A stretch of DNA of 64,000 bases from Bacteroidota bacterium (lineage in GTDB: Bacteria > Bacteroidota > Bacteroidia > Chitinophagales > Chitinophagaceae). Positions within the stretch are counted from its first letter, which is position 1. Every line of letters starts with the position of its first letter. This document shows, piece by piece, positions 47,327-57,432 of the stretch. Under the pieces are notes generated by a model, which worked only from the letters and a program-made list of their open reading frames with translations, did not search any database and had not been told where the DNA came from. The translations under genes and the position numbers were made by a program. The DNA is taken from assembly GCA_018970395.1 (NCBI GenBank), contig JAGWWM010000004.1, forward strand, positions 1 to 64,000, given 5' to 3'.

Positions 47327-48112
47327 TTAAAATAGATATTGGTTATTGGTTATTGAAGTTATAAAAACATGCGTAGTTTCATCGATTGACTTGCCTTGAT
47401 TCAATGCCTGAATATAAGCCGTACCAATGATGGCGCCATTGGTATAAGTGCAGGCGCGATTGAAGCTGGCTTTATCCTTAATACCGAAACCTACCAGCGC
47501 CGGATTATTGAGTTTCATGGATTGTAATCTTTTCAAATATGCTTCTACCCCATCATTGTTTTGTTGGGAGCCGGTGGTAGCAGAAGAAGAAACTGCATAA
47601 AGAAATCCGCTGCTTAAAGCATCAAATTTTTGAATCCGCTCCGCTGATGTTTCAGGAGTAATCAGAAAAGTAAAGGACAAATTGTTTTGCTTCAATATCG
47701 GCGCATAAAATTTTTCATACTCATACTCAGGAAGATCAGGTAAAATCAATCCGTCTATACCACAAGCAGCTGCATCGGCACAAAACTTTTCAAAACCATA
47801 CTGCAATACCGGATTCATATAGCCCATTAGGATAACCGGAAGGGATATTTCATTTCTGAAATTTTTCAGCTGCTCAAACAGCACCTGAATCGTCATTCCA
47901 TTGGCAATCGCTTTGGCACTGCTTTCCTGAATCACAGGGCCGTCTGCCAGCGGATCACTGTAGGGCATGCCCAGTTCAATCAAATCTGCACCGTGTCTTT
48001 GTAGCGAACGCATCACTTCAAGGGTACTGTTCAATTCAGGGAATCCTGCTGTGCAGTACATATTGAGGACACGTTTGGATTTATTTTGAAAGAGGTTCTC
48101 CAGGCGATTCAT
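47327..48112 (-). CDS. trpA: tryptophan synthase alpha chain
   Basis: 261 aa; DLIELGMPYSDPLADGPVIQESSAKAI, GIDGLILPDLPEYE, FLYAVSSSATTG. Confidence 0.94.
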   Translation of the reverse strand: MNRLENLFQNKSKRVLNMYCTAGFPELNSTLEVMRSLQRHGADLIELGMPYSDPLADGPVIQESSAKAIANGMTIQVLFEQLKNFRNEISLPVILMGYMNPVLQYGFEKFCADAAACGIDGLILPDLPEYEYEKFYAPILKQNNLSFTFLITPETSAERIQKFDALSSGFLYAVSSSATTGSQQNNDGVEAYLKRLQSMKLNNPALVGFGIKDKASFNRACTYTNGAIIGTAYIQALNQGKSIDETTHVFITSITNNQYLF

Positions 48113-48143
48113 AAAATATAATTTTTTGTATTGCTCCTATGTC

Positions 48144-48156
48144 ACCCCTTCGGGGT
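48144..48156 (-). promoter_or_regulatory. intercistronic GC hairpin between trpB and trpA
   Basis: ACCCC-TTC-GGGGT perfect 5-bp arms in the 55-nt trpB-trpA spacer. Confidence 0.5.
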
Positions 48157-48167
48157 TATTTTTAATC

Positions 48168-49370
48168 TTATTTTAGTTTTTCCATATAAGTTGCCAGGTC
48201 TTTATCCCCTCTGCCACTCAGACAAATCACTACCCGATCTGAAGGTTTCCATTGCATTTTTTTCAAGACTGCAAAAGCATGGGCAGTTTCAAGTGCGGGG
48301 ATGATGCCTTCCGTGCGACTTAATTCCGATGCAGCTTCCAAGGCTTCTTCGTCCGTTGCATGCAAATATTTCCCTCTCTTCGAAGTGTGCAGATGCGCAT
48401 GCAACGGCCCGATGCCGGGATAGTCCAGTCCTGCCGAAATACTGTGCGGCTCCACCACCTGCCCGTCTGCGGTCTGCATTAACAGACTCTTGCTTCCATG
48501 CAAAATACCGGGTGTACCCAACGCCGTCGTAGCAGCCGATTTGCCGGAATCCACTCCTTCTCCTGCAGCTTCCACTGCAATCAATTCAACTGATACACTT
48601 TCTAAAAAATGATAGAAAGCTCCGGCAGCGTTGCTGCCTCCGCCCACACAGGCAATCACATGTGTAGGCTCTTCATTACCTGTCGCATCCTTCAACTGCC
48701 ATTTGATTTCTTCGCTGATTACACTCTGAAACCTCGCCACCATATCGGGATAAGGATGCGGCCCTACTACACTGCCTATGATATAATGCGTATCCTCCGG
48801 ATGATTGATCCAGTCGCGGATGGCTTCATTCGTTGCATCTTTCAATGTCTTACTTCCGCTTGTAGCAGGAACCACTTTGGCACCCATCATGCGCATGCGT
48901 GCCACATTCGGCGCTTGTCGCTGCATATCCTTTTCGCCCATATACACAATACACTCCAGTCCTTTCAATGCACAGACTGTTGCGGTAGCCACGCCATGCT
49001 GACCGGCACCGGTCTCCGCAATAATTCTTTTCTTACCTAAGCGCTCTGCCATTAGGATTTGTCCAACGGTGTTATTCACTTTATGGGCGCCGGTATGACA
49101 AAGATCTTCGCGCTTCAACCAGATCTGCGTGCCATATTTTTCACTCAGTCGCTTCGCATAAAACAACGGCGTGGGTCTCCCTACAAAATCTCGTAGCAAG
49201 TCCTGAAAATCTTTTTGAAAGGAAGCGTCATTCATGTGCTGAAGATATTGCGTGCGCAACTCCTCTACATTCCGATACAACATCTCCGGTATAAACGCTC
49301 CTCCAAACATACCGTAATAACCGTGGTGGTCGGGGTGGAATTCAGATATTGAATTGGTTGATTTATTCAT
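48168..49370 (-). CDS. trpB: tryptophan synthase beta chain; start moved to [11 protein letters not shown]
   Basis: [64 protein letters not shown]. Confidence 0.95.
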
Positions 49371-49398
49371 AAAAAAATATTGATCATTAATATGTTTT

Positions 49399-49503
49399 AA
49401 GTCAAAACTCAAAGGGCAAAACCAAAAAAATACAACCTACAACATACAACCAACAACCTTCAACTTTTAACATTTATGGTTTTGACTTTTGACCTTTGGC
49501 TTT
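49399..49503. repeat. 15-unit heptanucleotide-period array spanning the trpF 3' end and trpF-trpB spacer
   Basis: AAGTCAA AACTCAA AGGGCAA AACCAAA AAAATAC AACCTAC AACATAC AACCAAC AACCTTC AACTTTT AACATTT ATGGTTT TGACTTT TGACCTT TGGCTTT in one register. Confidence 0.8.
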
Positions 49504-50177
49504 ATCTCATTCACCCCCTCAAAAAACGCCCTCACCTTCCCCAAATCCTTCACACCCGGACTGATTTCAAAACCGCTGTTTACATCAACTGCAAATAAAT
49601 CCTTCGCCACAGGTTGCTGAGAAAAATTTATGATGGCATTCGCATCTCCAGGTTCTATTCCTCCGCTCAGAAAAAAAGGCTTTTGAATATTCAAATTATT
49701 CAACACTTCCCAGTTGAATTTCTTTCCCGTTCCACCATAGCCTGCCCCCATGGTATCAAACAAATACATATCGCAACAGTCTTTGTAATTTTTAATCATC
49801 CAGGGAATATTCTCGTTCTCGCCGAGGCGAAATGCTTTGATCGTTTGAATGTACAATGAAACCTGTTCACAGAAACGCGGCGTTTCATCTCCGTGCAACT
49901 GCACCATATCGAGTCCGAAATTGTCCACCTGATTCACAATCTCCTCATAGCTTGCATTTACAAAAACACCTACTTTATACACTTTCAACTTCGCTTTTCT
50001 GACCATCTCGCCATTGAGCGTTTTGAGGACGAAGCGAGGAGACTTATGATAGAAAATCATACCGGCAAACTGCACCCCTATCTCACCTAGCGCTTCCATC
50101 TGCGACAAGTCGGTCATGCCGCATACTTTTACACGTATGTGGGGATGCGGTGATGATATGTTTACTGTGTCGCTCAT
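49467..50177 (-). CDS. trpF: phosphoribosylanthranilate isomerase
   Basis: 236 aa; VKVCGMTDLSQMEAL, DMVQLHGDETPRFC, FLSGGIEPGDANAI, DVNSGFEISPGVKDLGKVRAFF. Confidence 0.93.
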   Translation of the reverse strand: MSDTVNISSPHPHIRVKVCGMTDLSQMEALGEIGVQFAGMIFYHKSPRFVLKTLNGEMVRKAKLKVYKVGVFVNASYEEIVNQVDNFGLDMVQLHGDETPRFCEQVSLYIQTIKAFRLGENENIPWMIKNYKDCCDMYLFDTMGAGYGGTGKKFNWEVLNNLNIQKPFFLSGGIEPGDANAIINFSQQPVAKDLFAVDVNSGFEISPGVKDLGKVRAFFEGVNEIKPKVKSQNHKC

Positions 50178-50231
50178 TATTTTTAAAGTATTGTGCTATT
50201 AGAAATCCTTGCCAGCGCCACAGATTTCGGA

Positions 50232-50316
50232 AGCGTCATCCTGAACCTATACGAAGGATCTCCTGATGGAGTACGAGTAAAATATGAGATGTTTCGCTGA
50301 CGCTCAACATGACGCT
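50232..50316. repeat. REP/MITE-like imperfect inverted repeat between trpC and trpF
   Basis: Perfect terminal arms AGCGTCAT (50232-50239) / ATGACGCT (50309-50316); inner GAAGGATCTC vs GAGATGTTTC imperfect arms. Confidence 0.75.
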
Positions 50317-50453
50317 CTTTGCGACCTTTGTCTCTTTGTGAACTTTGCGTGAAATAATTAAACATTATAAAAAATTAATTGATTCAATAAATTTATACTG
50401 CACTATATATTTATTAAAACTCATAGTACGATACGTAATTTATTTTTATATCT

Positions 50454-51230
50454 CTAGAGCAATTTCACGAAATCTTGAAATGCTGTACCTGGGTTATGCT
50501 GTTTCATAAAATACTCACCCATCAAAAAACCTTTAAACCCTTTTGATTTAAAATATTTTACCTCATTCACACTACTGATGCCACTCTCCGCAACCAATAC
50601 TTTTGATGCATCAATCTGACCAGCCATGCGAATGCTTTGCTCGATATCTACTTCAAAGGTTTTCAGATTTCTGTTGTTGATGCCCACAATGGATATTTCA
50701 TCGCAGACATGCTCCAACTCCGATTCATCATGCAATTCGAGTAGGACTTCAAGACCTAATTGAATCGCATATTTTGCGAGCAACTGCACTTCCTCCGGGG
50801 TCAGACAAGCGGCGATTAATAAAATAACATCCGCACCGATAGATTTAGCTTCTTCAATCTGATAGGGATCAATGATGAAATCTTTTCTGAGAATTGGGAT
50901 GTTATTTTTTCGAGCGAGCATCAAATCCTGATTGTTTCCACCAAAGAAATTTTGATCAGTGAGTACACTCAAAGCAGATGCACCACCATCAGTATAAGCA
51001 GCGGTTATATTTAAAACATCGGGATTGGGATGAATGATTCCTTTGCTCGGAGAACGTCTTTTGAATTCAGCAATGATGCCGGTTTTGGAAGAATCGAGCA
51101 AGGAAGACTTTAGTGAGAAGCAAGTGTGACCATACCATTCAGACTGACGCAATACCTTAACCGGAGTCTGCGCTTTGTTTTGTGCAACCTCTTTTCTTTT
51201 ATGTGCGATGATTTGATCGAGAATATTCAT
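50454..51230 (-). CDS. trpC: indole-3-glycerol phosphate synthase
   Basis: 258 aa; IIAEFKRRSPSKGII, ILRKDFIIDPYQIEEAKSIGADVILLIAA, VGINNRNLKTFEVD, LVAESGISS. Confidence 0.94.
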   Translation of the reverse strand: MNILDQIIAHKRKEVAQNKAQTPVKVLRQSEWYGHTCFSLKSSLLDSSKTGIIAEFKRRSPSKGIIHPNPDVLNITAAYTDGGASALSVLTDQNFFGGNNQDLMLARKNNIPILRKDFIIDPYQIEEAKSIGADVILLIAACLTPEEVQLLAKYAIQLGLEVLLELHDESELEHVCDEISIVGINNRNLKTFEVDIEQSIRMAGQIDASKVLVAESGISSVNEVKYFKSKGFKGFLMGEYFMKQHNPGTAFQDFVKLL

Positions 51231-51238
51231 GCTTTTAT

Positions 51239-52237
51239 TCAGTTAAGTGATAAAAGTGTTTTGAGTGCCTGCAATGCTTTTTTGCTTTGCAGACTTTCCA
51301 TAGCAGCCATAAAGGCATCTTCATACTGTTCGTACACCCCCGCGCATTGCAATCCCATTGCCGCATTGGCAGTCACTACATGATTTTGTGCAGGTGTGCC
51401 ATTGCCTTCAAGAATTTGCATAAAGATTTTTGCAGCTTCTTCGACAGAATTTCCGGCTTCCAGTTCATGTGGCTTCACCGTTATTTTTCCCAATGCCATC
51501 GGTGTTTTGATAGATTCACCGTTTTGCGTAATGACTTTCGTATCGGAGGTGAGGGAGATTTCGTCGTAGCCGTCGAGACTATGAATGACCGTGAAGCGAG
51601 GAGCGATTTGTTGTAATAAGTAGGTATAGATACGAGCCATTTCTAGATTGTAAACGCCGAGCAGCTGCGCCGAAGGCGCAGCGGGATTCACGGTGGGGCC
51701 GAGCATATTGAAAAAAGTACGTACCGCCAGATTTTTACGAATGGGCGCCACGGTTTTCAACGCCGGATGAAATAAGGGCGCGTGCATAAAACAGATACCT
51801 GCTTTTTCAACCTGCCGATTCAATTTGTCATTATCATTGGTAAATTGATAGCCTAATTGCTCCATCACATTACTTGCACCACTAATGGCAGAGGCTCCAT
51901 AGTTCCCGTGCTTGGCAATTTTCGCACCTGCACCTGCTGCCACAAAACAGGCCAACGTAGAAATATTGAATGTATTCTTCCCATCTCCTCCTGTTCCGAC
52001 AATATCCAAAAGATTATCCTGTTCAATGCGCACTTTCACCGCCAGCTCAAGTAAAGCAGCTCTGAATCCCAGCAATTCTTCGATAGTGATACTGCGCATG
52101 AGATATACCGTCATAAAGGCACTCAGTTCATGCTCATTGAAGGCTCCCCGACTCATCTGCAACATCACTTCTCTCGCCTGCACTTGACTCAACGGTCGGT
52201 GTTCAAACAATTGTTTTAATATTTTATGCATTTCCAT
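51239..52237 (-). CDS. trpD: anthranilate phosphoribosyltransferase
   Basis: 332 aa; DIVGTGGDGKNTFNISTLACFVAAGAGAKIAKHGNYGASAISGASNVMEQLG, TFFNMLGPTVNPA. Confidence 0.94.
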   Translation of the reverse strand: MEMHKILKQLFEHRPLSQVQAREVMLQMSRGAFNEHELSAFMTVYLMRSITIEELLGFRAALLELAVKVRIEQDNLLDIVGTGGDGKNTFNISTLACFVAAGAGAKIAKHGNYGASAISGASNVMEQLGYQFTNDNDKLNRQVEKAGICFMHAPLFHPALKTVAPIRKNLAVRTFFNMLGPTVNPAAPSAQLLGVYNLEMARIYTYLLQQIAPRFTVIHSLDGYDEISLTSDTKVITQNGESIKTPMALGKITVKPHELEAGNSVEEAAKIFMQILEGNGTPAQNHVVTANAAMGLQCAGVYEQYEDAFMAAMESLQSKKALQALKTLLSLN

Positions 52238-52238
52238 T

Positions 52239-52817
52239 TTATGCGTTTAACCAGTTGCGTATGAGTTGTTCGCCGGATGGAGTGAGTACACTCTCCGGAT
52301 GAAACTGTACGCCTGTTACATCAAAAGTTTTATGCTTCATTGCCATGATATAACCGTTTTCATCCTCTGCCGTTATTTCCAGGCAATCCGGCAATCCATC
52401 TTTATCCACCACCCAGGAATGATAACGACCCACTTCAAACGAAGCAGGAAAGCCATTAAAAATATTTCCAGAAACAGAAGCATCATTTAATATTCGTATC
52501 GGCGTCGCCACTCCATGAAAAACCTGATCGAGATTAACCAGCTTTGCACCAAAAGCCTCTCCTATTGCCTGGTGCCCCAGACAAACACCGAGTATGGATT
52601 TAGAAGGAGCAAATCTTTTGATCAGCGGTAGCAATAGTCCTGCCTCTTCAGGAATTCCCGGACCGGGAGAAAGAATAATTTTATCATAAGCTTCCACTTC
52701 ATCCAGCGTAATCTGATCGTTGCGATGCACTTCTACCTTCAGATGCAGCATCTTCTCTACCAAATGCACGAGATTGTAGGTAAAGGAATCGTAGTTGTCG
52801 AAGACGAGTATTTTCAT
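52239..52817 (-). CDS. trpG: anthranilate synthase component II (glutamine amidotransferase)
   Basis: 192 aa; FDNYDSFTYNLVHLVE, ILSPGPGIPEEAG, ILGVCLGHQAIGEAFGA, VQFHPESVLT. Confidence 0.94.
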   Translation of the reverse strand: MKILVFDNYDSFTYNLVHLVEKMLHLKVEVHRNDQITLDEVEAYDKIILSPGPGIPEEAGLLLPLIKRFAPSKSILGVCLGHQAIGEAFGAKLVNLDQVFHGVATPIRILNDASVSGNIFNGFPASFEVGRYHSWVVDKDGLPDCLEITAEDENGYIMAMKHKTFDVTGVQFHPESVLTPSGEQLIRNWLNA

Positions 52818-52928: not shown

Positions 52929-54371
52929 TCAATTAGTAATCCTAAATAACTCCCCCGCCGTCTTTACCGCCTTATGCAAGGCACCGAGTTTGTTATTCAC
53001 TTCCTGCAATTCACTTTCCGGATTACTGGAGATGACCACGCCGGCACCGGCCTGAGAGATCAGTTGATTGTTCATGCTTAAAAAACTTCGAATCAGGATA
53101 GCGTGGTTGAAGCTACCGTCTAATCCGACAAATCCAATTGCTCCTCCGTAAAATCCACGCGATAACGGTTCGTATTGATTGATGAGCTGCATCGCTTTGA
53201 TTTTGGGAGCACCGCTGAGCGTTCCCGCAGGAAAAGTTTTGGTGAGCAGATGAAAAGGATGTGCGCCTGGTTTGACTTTTCCGCGTACTTCACTAACAAG
53301 GTGAATCACGTGACTGAAATACTGAATTTGTCGATAACGTGATACTACCACTTCATTGCAAACCCTGCTCAGATCATTACGGGCGAGATCCACCAGCATG
53401 ACGTGTTCTGCATTTTCTTTTGCATTTTCCAACAGTCGTTCCGCCTCCCTTCGGTCGGCGGCCTCATCACCACTGCGCTTGAAAGTACCCGCAATGGGAT
53501 GCACAATCGCTTCTCCGTTTTCAATGAGTAACTGCGATTCAGGAGAGGAACCCATCAGTTTGTAATCACCGTAATCAAAATAAAACAAGTACGGAGACGG
53601 GTTGATGCTGCGCAACGCACGATAAACATTAAAATCGTCGCCGCTGAACGCTTGCGTGAAGCGGCGGCTCAATACAATCTGAAACACATCTCCGCGCTGA
53701 CAACTCGCAATGCCCTTTCGCACCATCTCCCGATAATCTTCATCGCTCATGTTGGATGTCTGCAATCCTTTCAGTGCAAATGGATAGCTCGGCACATCTT
53801 TATGTCGAATCAGATGTTCAATCACATCCATTTCCGAGGACTGTCCCTCTATCTGATTCTCACATAAATACAATTGATCCTTGAAGTGATGAATCGCAAT
53901 CACATACTGATAAAACCGATAGCGCATTAATCCGACCGGCAAGGGCGAATTTTCTTCCAGCTTCAACTCTTCCAGCAAATCAATTGCATCAAAAGCAGTA
54001 TAACCATAAAAACCCTGCGCATACCTGATCGCTTTTTGCATAGAGGCATCTTCCGGCACTTCAGCACTGGGTTTGAATTGCTGCATGTAATTCCATAATT
54101 TGTCTGCTACGTTCTCCTGATTCGCTATGGAAATCTTTTGCGGTTCAGACCCCGGTACTTTAGTTTCAATTTCATGGTGGTTGAGAATCTCAATCCCCGC
54201 AATCGCATTCACACAAATAAAACTCCAGCTATTTTCCGCAGCATGATAATCGGTACTTTCCAGCAGCAGCGTATCCCTGAAACGATCACGCAGTCGCAGG
54301 TAAATCCCCACCGGCGTATACACATCCGCCAGCAATTTTCTGCATCTTGTAGTAAAGTTAATGTTCTGCAT
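52929..54371 (-). CDS. trpE: anthranilate synthase component I
   Basis: 480 aa; FQIVLSRRF, HPIAGTFKRSGDEAADRREAERLLENAKENAEHVMLVDLARNDLSRVC, GTLSGAPKIKAMQLI, FYGGAIGFVGLDG, AGAGVVISSNPESE. Confidence 0.94.
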   Translation of the reverse strand: MQNINFTTRCRKLLADVYTPVGIYLRLRDRFRDTLLLESTDYHAAENSWSFICVNAIAGIEILNHHEIETKVPGSEPQKISIANQENVADKLWNYMQQFKPSAEVPEDASMQKAIRYAQGFYGYTAFDAIDLLEELKLEENSPLPVGLMRYRFYQYVIAIHHFKDQLYLCENQIEGQSSEMDVIEHLIRHKDVPSYPFALKGLQTSNMSDEDYREMVRKGIASCQRGDVFQIVLSRRFTQAFSGDDFNVYRALRSINPSPYLFYFDYGDYKLMGSSPESQLLIENGEAIVHPIAGTFKRSGDEAADRREAERLLENAKENAEHVMLVDLARNDLSRVCNEVVVSRYRQIQYFSHVIHLVSEVRGKVKPGAHPFHLLTKTFPAGTLSGAPKIKAMQLINQYEPLSRGFYGGAIGFVGLDGSFNHAILIRSFLSMNNQLISQAGAGVVISSNPESELQEVNNKLGALHKAVKTAGELFRITN

Positions 54372-54385
54372 AATTCATATTAAAT

Positions 54386-54411
54386 CAAAATGCCCCGAAG
54401 TACGGGGCATT
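54386..54411 (-). terminator. attenuator terminator hairpin upstream of trpE
   Basis: Minus strand AATGCCCCG-TACTT-CGGGGCATT followed by U-rich TTGATTT, between the Trp-rich leader ORF and trpE. Confidence 0.82.
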
Positions 54412-54436
54412 GATGAATATTATTAATGGAATAACA

Positions 54437-54496
54437 TTACAGCCCCAGAGGGTTTGTCATCCACCACCATTGTTGATTATTTAATTTTGTAATCAT
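54437..54496 (-). CDS. trpL: trp operon leader peptide, 19 aa: MITKLNNQQWWWMTNPLGL
   Basis: Minus strand ATG ATT ACA AAA TTA AAT AAT CAA CAA TGG TGG TGG ATG ACA AAC CCT CTG GGG CTG TAA; three consecutive Trp codons (54461-54469), followed by a terminator hairpin. Confidence 0.85.
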   Translation of the reverse strand: MITKLNNQQWWWMTNPLGL

Positions 54497-54511
54497 TTAA
54501 GCAAATTTGTT

Positions 54512-54536
54512 TCATTCCAATGGAATGACAAAATTA
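54512..54536 (-). promoter_or_regulatory. putative trp operon -7 box (TAATTTTG) abutting a palindrome
   Basis: Minus strand TAATTTTG (plus 54529-54536) matches TAnnTTTG; palindrome TCATTCC-AAT-GGAATGA at 54512-54528 lies where transcription would start. Confidence 0.6.
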
Positions 54537-54699
54537 TTTTTAATCTTTTAAACGAACGGTCATTATTATAAATTCCAAATCCATATGCCAGTAGAGCCGC
54601 ACTATTGTGCGTATCCAATTAATGATATAACCAACAAAATATGTAATTTCAATTTTTATCACTATTCAGCTGCTTATTGCTTGTTCTGAAAAATCGTTT

Positions 54700-56454
54700 A
54701 TGCAAACTAAAAATCAATCTACTAACTATGCTGCGCTGGGCACACTGGTTACTGTATTTTTCTTCTGGGGATTTATTGCTGCCGGCAATAGCGTCTTCAT
54801 TCCTTTTTGTAAACACTATTTTAAACTCGATCAGTTTCAGAGCCAGCTGATTGATTTTGCATTTTATACCGCCTATTATGTTGGCGCCTTGATCTTATTT
54901 GCAACCGGTGCTTTAAGTGGAAAAGATCCGGTAGGCAGTTGGGGCTATAAGAAAAGTATCGTGTACGGATTATTATTCTCAGCAATGGGTGCTGCAGCTA
55001 TGATCATAGCCGTCAATGCCAATCTTTTTGCAGGCATGCTGACCGGACTTTTCATTGTAGCACTCGGATTTTCTTTGCAACAAACTTCTGCTCAACCCTT
55101 TGCCATTTCACTGGGAGATCCTGCTACCGGCACGAGTCGCGTGAATCTCGGAGGAGGTATTAATTCCTTAGGAACAACCATCGGCCCTTTGGTTGTGGCG
55201 CTTGCCTTATTTGGCACTTCATCTGCTATTACCGATGAACAGATTCAATCGCTCCCCCTCAGTAAAGTGATTGTGTTATACAGCTGTGTTGGTATTTTAT
55301 TTTTAGCAGCAGCCGCTCTGTTCTTCTTCTCCAAAAAAGTACCGGCAGGCATTCATGCAGAAGCCATAGAAAAAGAAAACAAAGCATTGTGGTTGCTAGT
55401 TTGCATTACCATCTTACTTGGCTTGTTTTTCACGCCTGTATTTCAAAGTTATAAGAGTGAAGAAGCGCAACAGATTGTTCAATTCGCCAATGAAATCAGT
55501 GCGCTTGAAAAAACAAACACGAACAATGATCCTACTGTAGTAGCACAAATCGAAAGAATCAAAACTACTATTCAGGAAATCAAACTACCACTCGAGCAAT
55601 CGCGTATGCGCTGGCTGAGCGCTGCACTGATTACGATTGTAGTTGGGCTTTTGATAGCCAACCAAAGGGCAAAAAGGAATCCCACCGGCTGGGGAGCAAT
55701 GAAATATCCGCAACTTATTCTGGGGATGCTGGGCATTTTTGTATATGTGGGGGTAGAAGTTTCTATCGGAAGTAATTTGGGAGAACTGTTGAAGCAATCC
55801 GATTTCGGAAGCTATCCTTCCTCTCAGATTGCTCCTTTTATTTCGATGTACTGGGGCAGCTTAATGATTGGCAGATGGGCTGGTGCCATCAGTGCTTTTC
55901 AGTTTACTGCATCCACAAAAAAAATTTTACTCATTATCGTTCCCTTAATTGCCTATGGTGTCATCATTGGCGCAAACACGCTGGCGGGGTATAACATGAG
56001 TGATTTATATCTGTATGTCAGTTTTGTATTTATTCAAATTATGGCCTTCTTTTTCAGCAAAGAAAAACCCGCAAGAACCTTACTCATCTTCAGCATATTG
56101 GGAGTATCAGCCATGATATTGGGTTTATTCTCTACCGGTACATTAGCCATCTATTCTTTTTTAAGCGGCGGACTGTTTTGCTCCATCATGTGGCCTTGTA
56201 TTTTTTCTTTGGCCATTGCAGGACTAGGCAAATACACCACACAAGGTTCCGCCTTTTTAATCATGATGATATTAGGCGGCGGAATCATTCCTCCTATCCA
56301 GGGAAAGCTAGCAGATCTGATCGGCATTCATCAGTCTTATTGGGTAGCCGTCCTCTGCTTTGGCTATCTTGCTTTTTTTGCCTGGAGAGTCCGTCAGATT
56401 TTATACAAACAAGGCATTAATTACGAAACAGAAAATACAAGTTCAGCGCATTAA
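54700..56454 (+). CDS. sugar MFS transporter (FucP/glucose-galactose transporter-like) with a central insertion
   Basis: 584 aa; [82 protein letters not shown]; extra loop [24 protein letters not shown]...[12 protein letters not shown]. Confidence 0.87.
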
Positions 56455-56469
56455 ACAGATATTTGCGGC

Positions 56470-57432
56470 ATGGAAAAGAAATTAGCAATCGGTATTGATA
56501 TCGGCGGAACGACCACCAAATTTGGGATTGTAGATAACAGCGGACATATTCTTGAGCAAGACCGCATCCCAACAAATGAACACGAAGTAGCCTCTTTATT
56601 TATAGAGGACTTGTATGCAAAGCTATGGCCGATGATTTTGCGCCATGGTCAACCTGAAAATTATATCGGGATCGGCGTTGGCGCACCGAACGGCAATTAT
56701 TATACCGGCACCATTGAATATGCCCCTAACCTGAAATGGAAGGGTATTATCCCCATGGCAAAAATGCTGGAAGAAAAATTCGGACTGCCTGCCCGTCTAA
56801 CCAATGATGCCAATGCAGCAGCCATGGGAGAAATGATCTATGGTTGTGCGAAAGGAAAAAAACATTTCATTACCATCACCCTCGGTACAGGCGTAGGAAG
56901 CGGAATTGTGATAGACGGAAAAATTGTACTCGGACATGATGGATTTGCAGGGGAACTCGGTCATACTATTATTCGTCCGGGCGGACGCGTACACAAGGGC
57001 ACCGGCATTAAAGGTAGCCTGGAAGCTTATGCTTCAGCAACCGGCGTTAGAGAAACCGCAATTGAATTTCTGACCAATGAACCCAATTCAGACAGTCTAC
57101 TCAGAAATTTTTCCATTGATGATCTGACCAGTCAGACCGTTTATGAATGTGCCATTAAGGGAGATAAAATCGCCAATCGGATTTTTGAATTCACCGGACA
57201 AATACTCGGAGAGGCATTAGCCAATTTTGTGATGTTCTCTTCTCCGGAAGTAATTGTCTTATTTGGGGGATTAACAAAAGCAGGCGATCTCATTCTGAAT
57301 CCTACCATCGAAGCAATGGAAGCCAATCTGATTAAAGTCTTCAAGAATAAAGTGAAAGTTGTATTCAGCAATCTCAAGGAAGCTGACGCAGCAATTCTTG
57401 GCGCATCCGCATTGGTTTGGGAAACAGCCTGA
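56470..57432 (+). CDS. ROK-family glucokinase-like sugar kinase
   Basis: 320 aa; IGIDIGGTTTKFGIVD, NDANAAAMGEM, ITLGTGVGSGIVIDGKI, GELGHTII. Confidence 0.9.
   Translation: MEKKLAIGIDIGGTTTKFGIVDNSGHILEQDRIPTNEHEVASLFIEDLYAKLWPMILRHGQPENYIGIGVGAPNGNYYTGTIEYAPNLKWKGIIPMAKMLEEKFGLPARLTNDANAAAMGEMIYGCAKGKKHFITITLGTGVGSGIVIDGKIVLGHDGFAGELGHTIIRPGGRVHKGTGIKGSLEAYASATGVRETAIEFLTNEPNSDSLLRNFSIDDLTSQTVYECAIKGDKIANRIFEFTGQILGEALANFVMFSSPEVIVLFGGLTKAGDLILNPTIEAMEANLIKVFKNKVKVVFSNLKEADAAILGASALVWETA

Follow-up and report, generated by a model that had tools for sequence, protein, structure and literature searches.

A functional-looking, unannotated trp attenuator present throughout the Chitinophagaceae

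We describe a genuine, hitherto unannotated attenuator that precedes the trp operon throughout the family Chitinophagaceae and looks functional. The element is almost certainly a ribosome-mediated transcription attenuator of the operon that works as in E. coli. It was analysed in a single stretch of 64,000 nucleotides from a Bacteroidota bacterium of this family (contig JAGWWM010000004.1), further referred to as the window, which carries a complete trp operon, trpEGDCFBA, on the minus strand, with a leader and an intrinsic terminator ahead of trpE. Comparison with related genomes and folding established the leader open reading frame (ORF) with its conserved run of codons, the promoter boxes and three helices that exclude one another, and the mechanism proposed for the site in the original prediction, made from the sequence alone, proved to be largely right.

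The first gene of the operon, trpE (52929..54371, minus; ATG at 54371), has TIGR00564 trpE_most as its best NCBIfam match (2.4e-116, 389.5 bits, which is under the curated cut-off of 517.7); the other genes, trpG, trpD, trpC, trpF, trpB and trpA (47327..52817, minus), were assigned from NCBIfam matches and ORFs. Upstream of trpE we confirmed the predicted minus-strand leader peptide ORF, trpL, MITKLNNQQWWWMTNPLGL (54437..54496, minus), which comprises 19 codons from the ATG at 54496-54494 to the TAA at 54439-54437. The sensor is a run of three consecutive Trp codons, (TGG)x3 (54461..54469, minus), kept in relatives. The intergenic region is common to the trp leader and a divergent sugar-transporter-like (MFS) gene (54700-56454, plus), which is followed by a ROK-family glucokinase-like gene (56470-57432); both were named by eye from their translations.

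The search of 121 related genomes yielded 67 trpE orthologues, clearly set apart from weaker paralogue-like matches. An ATG-led mini-ORF with three consecutive Trp codons (WWW) was found upstream of trpE in 55 of these 67 genomes within 300 nt, and in 59 within 500 nt. No such mini-ORF was present on the reverse strand upstream of trpE in any of the 67 genomes, none arose in dinucleotide-shuffled upstream DNA over 100 rounds, and any other codon triple was observed in at most 2 of the 67. The Trp run tends to have a near-fixed position: in 43 of 55 family leaders it starts 9 codons past the ATG. The peptide usually ends in QWWWHTTLRGL or QWWWHTNSxRGL. A second search covered 80 named loci (Niastella, Terrimonas, Sediminibacterium, Flavihumibacter and Chitinophagaceae metagenome-assembled genomes (MAGs); this set partly overlaps the 67) and gave a WW or WWW leader in 73 loci, with WWW in 71. 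Hence the leader Trp codons, whose conservation in related Chitinophagaceae had been suggested as a check of the element, are indeed conserved. In one group of Chitinophagaceae MAGs (L184, L186, L187, L188, L189, L190, L196) the leader reads ..NGWH.., a single Trp codon replacing WWW, and the G-run and the terminator are retained; these leaders provide a natural test of the number of Trp codons needed.

The leader is preceded by two promoter boxes at conserved spacing. In the window, the -33 element TTTG (54529..54532, minus) is followed after 19 nt by the -7 element CAAATTTG (54502..54509, minus; the consensus in relatives is yAtaTTTGC) and after a further 5 nt by the leader ATG. Of 52 relatives, 47 have a box of the form A..TT[TC]G placed 3-9 nt ahead of the ATG, as compared to a mean of 1.2 in shuffled sequences; 43 of 52 family leaders also have TTTG 18-21 nt upstream of this second box, the count never exceeding 1 in shuffles. 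The original prediction had taken TAATTTTG (54536-54529) for the -7 box; this assignment is one element too far upstream, as the two-box pattern of relatives, 19-20 nt apart, puts TAATTTTG at -33, and it is this octamer that holds the TTTG. Flavobacterium psychrophilum has its sigmaA box at -12 to -5, and leaderless transcripts make up only 5.5% of its mRNAs (PMC9723704); of the 5' UTRs of Bacteroides thetaiotaomicron, about 3.7% measure less than 10 nt (PMC7366714). Since the -7 box lies 5 nt before the ATG, the published sigmaA box spacing leads to the prediction that the leader mRNA is nearly leaderless, with a 5' UTR of about 1 nt in the window and about 3 nt in the commonest family layout. 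The predicted transcription start in the window, as judged from the position of the box, is at 54497 (minus), about 1 nt before the leader ATG.

The RNA downstream of the Trp codons may form three alternative helices, designated 1:2, 2:3 and 3:4. The last of these is the terminator, which the original prediction had placed before trpE as AATGCCCCG-TACTT-CGGGGCATT followed by a U-rich tail, and which we confirmed. Segment 3, the 5' arm AATGCCCCG (54403..54411, minus), is also the alternative partner of segment 2; segment 4 is the 3' arm CGGGGCATT (54389..54397, minus), with the loop TACTT between the arms, and the U-rich tail is TTGATTTAAT (54379..54388, minus). The terminator scan reported one site as against 0.2 expected. 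In the MAFFT alignment (A1) the G-run slips out of register between leader classes, and therefore covariation of the 2:3 and 3:4 helices was counted on hand-anchored composites (A2), in which each segment is aligned on its own motif. On these, 97.1% of cells in the 3:4 helix are paired and 8 pairs are changed on both sides (0/500 shuffles), so that the terminator is both conserved and covarying among relatives, which had been the second suggested check.

The antiterminator, 2:3, is formed by segment 2, GGGGCUGU (54439..54446, minus), which spans the last leader codons and the first base of the stop codon and simultaneously constitutes the 3' side of the 1:2 hairpin and the 5' side of the antiterminator. 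The GGGGC that had been noticed in the last leader codons is indeed there, at 54446-54442. Between segments 2 and 3 there is a spacer (54416..54438, minus) in which a further helix, AAUGUUAUU/AAUAAUAUU, lengthens the antiterminator; this inner helix differs between relatives. The proposed pairing of the leader GGGGC with the terminator GCCCC turned out to be conserved and covarying in relatives by swap, sliding and nascent-fold tests alike. The pairing energy between the leader end and the terminator is -17.9 kcal/mol for native combinations as compared to -14.9 kcal/mol when partners are swapped between genomes (0/20000); relatedness (phylogeny) is only partly removed in such permutation tests, and the set with one genome per genus (-18.0 vs -15.9 kcal/mol; 0/20000) and the outgroups from outside the family (39/20000) agree. 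In the composite alignment 84% of cells in this helix are paired, as against at most 58% when the helix is slid, and it appears in the nascent fold of 36 out of 37 relatives, with the mean energy of -16.7 kcal/mol vs -9.6 kcal/mol in shuffles. Thus, segment 2 tracks segment 3 across genera. The GGGG:CCCC core itself varies little within the family, and hence the covariation signal comes from the flanking pairs and the outgroups.

Leaders from six genomes (G020, G028, G044, G048, G059, G068; loci L053, L050, L051, L037, L035, L054) differ in length and ending and do not have the family GGGGC. Several of them stop right after the Trp codons, leaving segment 2 beyond the stop codon. The pairing of these leaders is with other parts of the terminator, e.g. 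GUGCCG:CGGCAC and CGCUGUGA:UCACAGCG.

The third conserved hairpin, 1:2, lies past the Trp codons and ahead of the stop codon, and in the window has the form ACA..CCC/GGG..UGU. Its 5' side is segment 1 (ACA AA CCC; 54450..54457, minus), as indicated by the fold, the A1 consensus (ACA..CUC....GGG..UGU), sliding and chimeras: 97.3% of cells are paired, compared to 29-50% when the helix is slid, and chimeric hairpins are weaker, with none of 5000 sets matching the native stability. The hairpin persists despite differing sequence in distant relatives, e.g. G103, G115, G116 and G104, and within the family in G028. The original prediction had missed this hairpin and described the element as a compact form of the E. 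coli logic. We reject this description, since the presence of the conserved hairpin means that the full 1:2 / 2:3 / 3:4 logic is in place and is not reduced.

To see how these helices could respond to translation, the window RNA was folded with assumed ribosome footprints, the edge being 12-15 nt past the A site. With the A site on the first, second or third TGG, GGGGC is free, and RNA extending as far as the terminator loop adopts the 2:3 helix together with its inner helix (-14.1 kcal/mol for this nascent fold). When the footprint edge passes the stop codon, the 2:3 helix is prevented and only the terminator is left, and in the fold with no ribosome the 1:2 hairpin forms first. In these simulated states, the footprint folding reproduced the proposal that a ribosome stalled at the Trp codons would free GGGGC and a ribosome at the stop codon would mask it. 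For the full-length RNA at equilibrium the terminator is favoured in every ribosome state, so the switch must be kinetic. The choice in the E. coli attenuator is likewise accepted as kinetic.

The sequence of events that we infer, from use of the promoter and translation of the leader to stalling, termination in vivo and a Trp response, would be as follows. Transcription would begin at the leader ATG or approximately 1 nt before it, and hence the ribosome would load at the very start of the emerging transcript. When charged tRNA-Trp is scarce, the ribosome would stall on the UGG run, covering segment 1; segment 2 (GGGGC) could then pair with segment 3 (GCCCC), with the inner helix forming between them, the terminator would be blocked and trpE would be transcribed. 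With ample Trp, the ribosome would reach the stop codon and cover both segments 1 and 2, the 3:4 helix would form, and transcription would terminate. If the leader is not translated at all, the 1:2 hairpin would sequester segment 2, and the terminator would be expected to form as well. As for other modes of Trp sensing, no PF02081 match that could indicate TRAP was found in the genome, and no T-box RNA was found at the trp leader site.

When the window was left out of the training of a model, this site was nevertheless the top match in the genome (44.1 bits, the next match having 34.4), the other matches in the genome being about 10 bits or more weaker. At the same time, none of the other good matches diverges as much as the window copy, which scores 51.9 bits even when included in the training set, while the others score 65-86. 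Given this lowest score, the leader WWWM where nearly all relatives have WWWH, an interrupted U-tail that is weaker than in most relatives, and a distance from the Trp run to trpE that is among the shortest, one could suppose that an ancestral attenuator is now decaying in this small-genome lineage (2.4 Mb vs 4-5 Mb in most congeners). We consider such decay unlikely: every part is intact and the parts are mutually complementary, the inner stem of the window 1:2 hairpin has three G-C pairs where most relatives have G-U, and another congener with a 2.4 Mb genome, G005, scores well.

Even less probable is the alternative that the leader operates by translational coupling, with reinitiation at trpE, and not by transcription attenuation. 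For Bacteroidetes, reinitiation after leader genes has been put forward where stop and start are 11-14 bp apart (PMC4833913), yet in the window the leader stop is located 65 nt before the trpE start, and in relatives the Trp run is separated from trpE by anything from 94 to 445 nt, while the terminator and the U-tail are kept in nearly all of them. Finally, a simple terminator that acts constitutively (or marks where some other transcript ends), accompanied by a WWW ORF by chance, would be in line with the terminator alone being the strongest structure of the region, but is hardly credible given the WWW ORF in 59 of 67 genomes at the near-fixed position and none on the reverse strand, the tracking of segment 3 by segment 2 across genera, and the interval between the promoter and the terminator hairpin, which holds only the leader.

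Ribosome-mediated attenuation being the preferred reading, the element may be compared with known systems. It shares with E. coli trpL (RF00513) the short leader with a run of Trp codons, the three helices, the stall/stop-codon logic and the position before trpE of a full trp operon. Unlike trpL, both segments 1 and 2 in the window are inside the ORF, past the Trp codons; the promoter is of the Bacteroidota type, the start is predicted to be near-leaderless, and there are three Trp codons. Also unlike E. coli, TrpR was not found in the genome of the window. A leaderless start, with the transcript beginning at the leader ATG, is a feature of trpL/rnTrpL of Sinorhizobium meliloti (PMC7298713), a Trp attenuator that the window element resembles in its predicted start; the S. 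meliloti attenuator differs in being alphaproteobacterial and in preceding trpE(G) only, and its sRNA and peptide have trans-acting roles. For Flavobacterium psychrophilum, transcriptome clues point to leader-peptide attenuators before amino-acid operons (PMC9723704). These belong to the same phylum and, by such clues, to the same kind of mechanism, but to other operons and another family, and the main text of that paper names no trp element.

The Bacteroid-trp RNA motif, RF01692 (Weinberg et al. 2010, PMC2864571), comes from the same phylum, is located upstream of trp genes and has a WWW leader and a terminator. At the gathering threshold, Rfam yielded no match anywhere in the window, nor in 18 relatives; at the trp leader site no Rfam family, RF01692 included, matched even at E up to 10, and running RF01692 and RF00513 against the genome likewise gave no match there. 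Among 148 genomes of the phylum RF01692 matched 13, each of them belonging to a single different family of the class (f25), as well as a Bacteroides control. In family f25 the end of the leader, GUCGUGA, matches the terminator loop and the 3' arm, whereas GGGGC of the Chitinophagaceae pairs with the 5' arm. Across the phylum (loci L083-L099, L102-L106) the leader end pairs either with the terminator 5' arm or with the loop and the 3' arm, so that the geometry of the antiterminator seems to have changed in the course of evolution. In the open-access literature we found no earlier description of a Chitinophagaceae trp attenuator, which does not by itself establish priority.

We probably deal with a distinct family-wide attenuator of the Chitinophagaceae without an Rfam model, in which the RNA begins with the leader ORF, loading of the ribosome would take place on emergence of the first codon and would involve neither a Shine-Dalgarno site nor a 5' UTR, and the stretch from the Trp codons to the stop codon accommodates the entire 1:2 hairpin. 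Since almost every class-level genome examined, and several more distant ones, have a WWW or WW leader before trpE, the Trp-leader strategy is widespread in the phylum: classical trp attenuation extends in Bacteroidota well beyond the Rfam model, with at least two evolved geometries of the antiterminator pairing, leader:5' arm and leader:loop + 3' arm. With a covariance model (R1 or R2) the element could be annotated in many genomes. As Shine-Dalgarno sites are rarely used in this phylum, the leader, predicted to be near-leaderless, lends itself to a clean test of how the ribosome keeps up with RNA polymerase.
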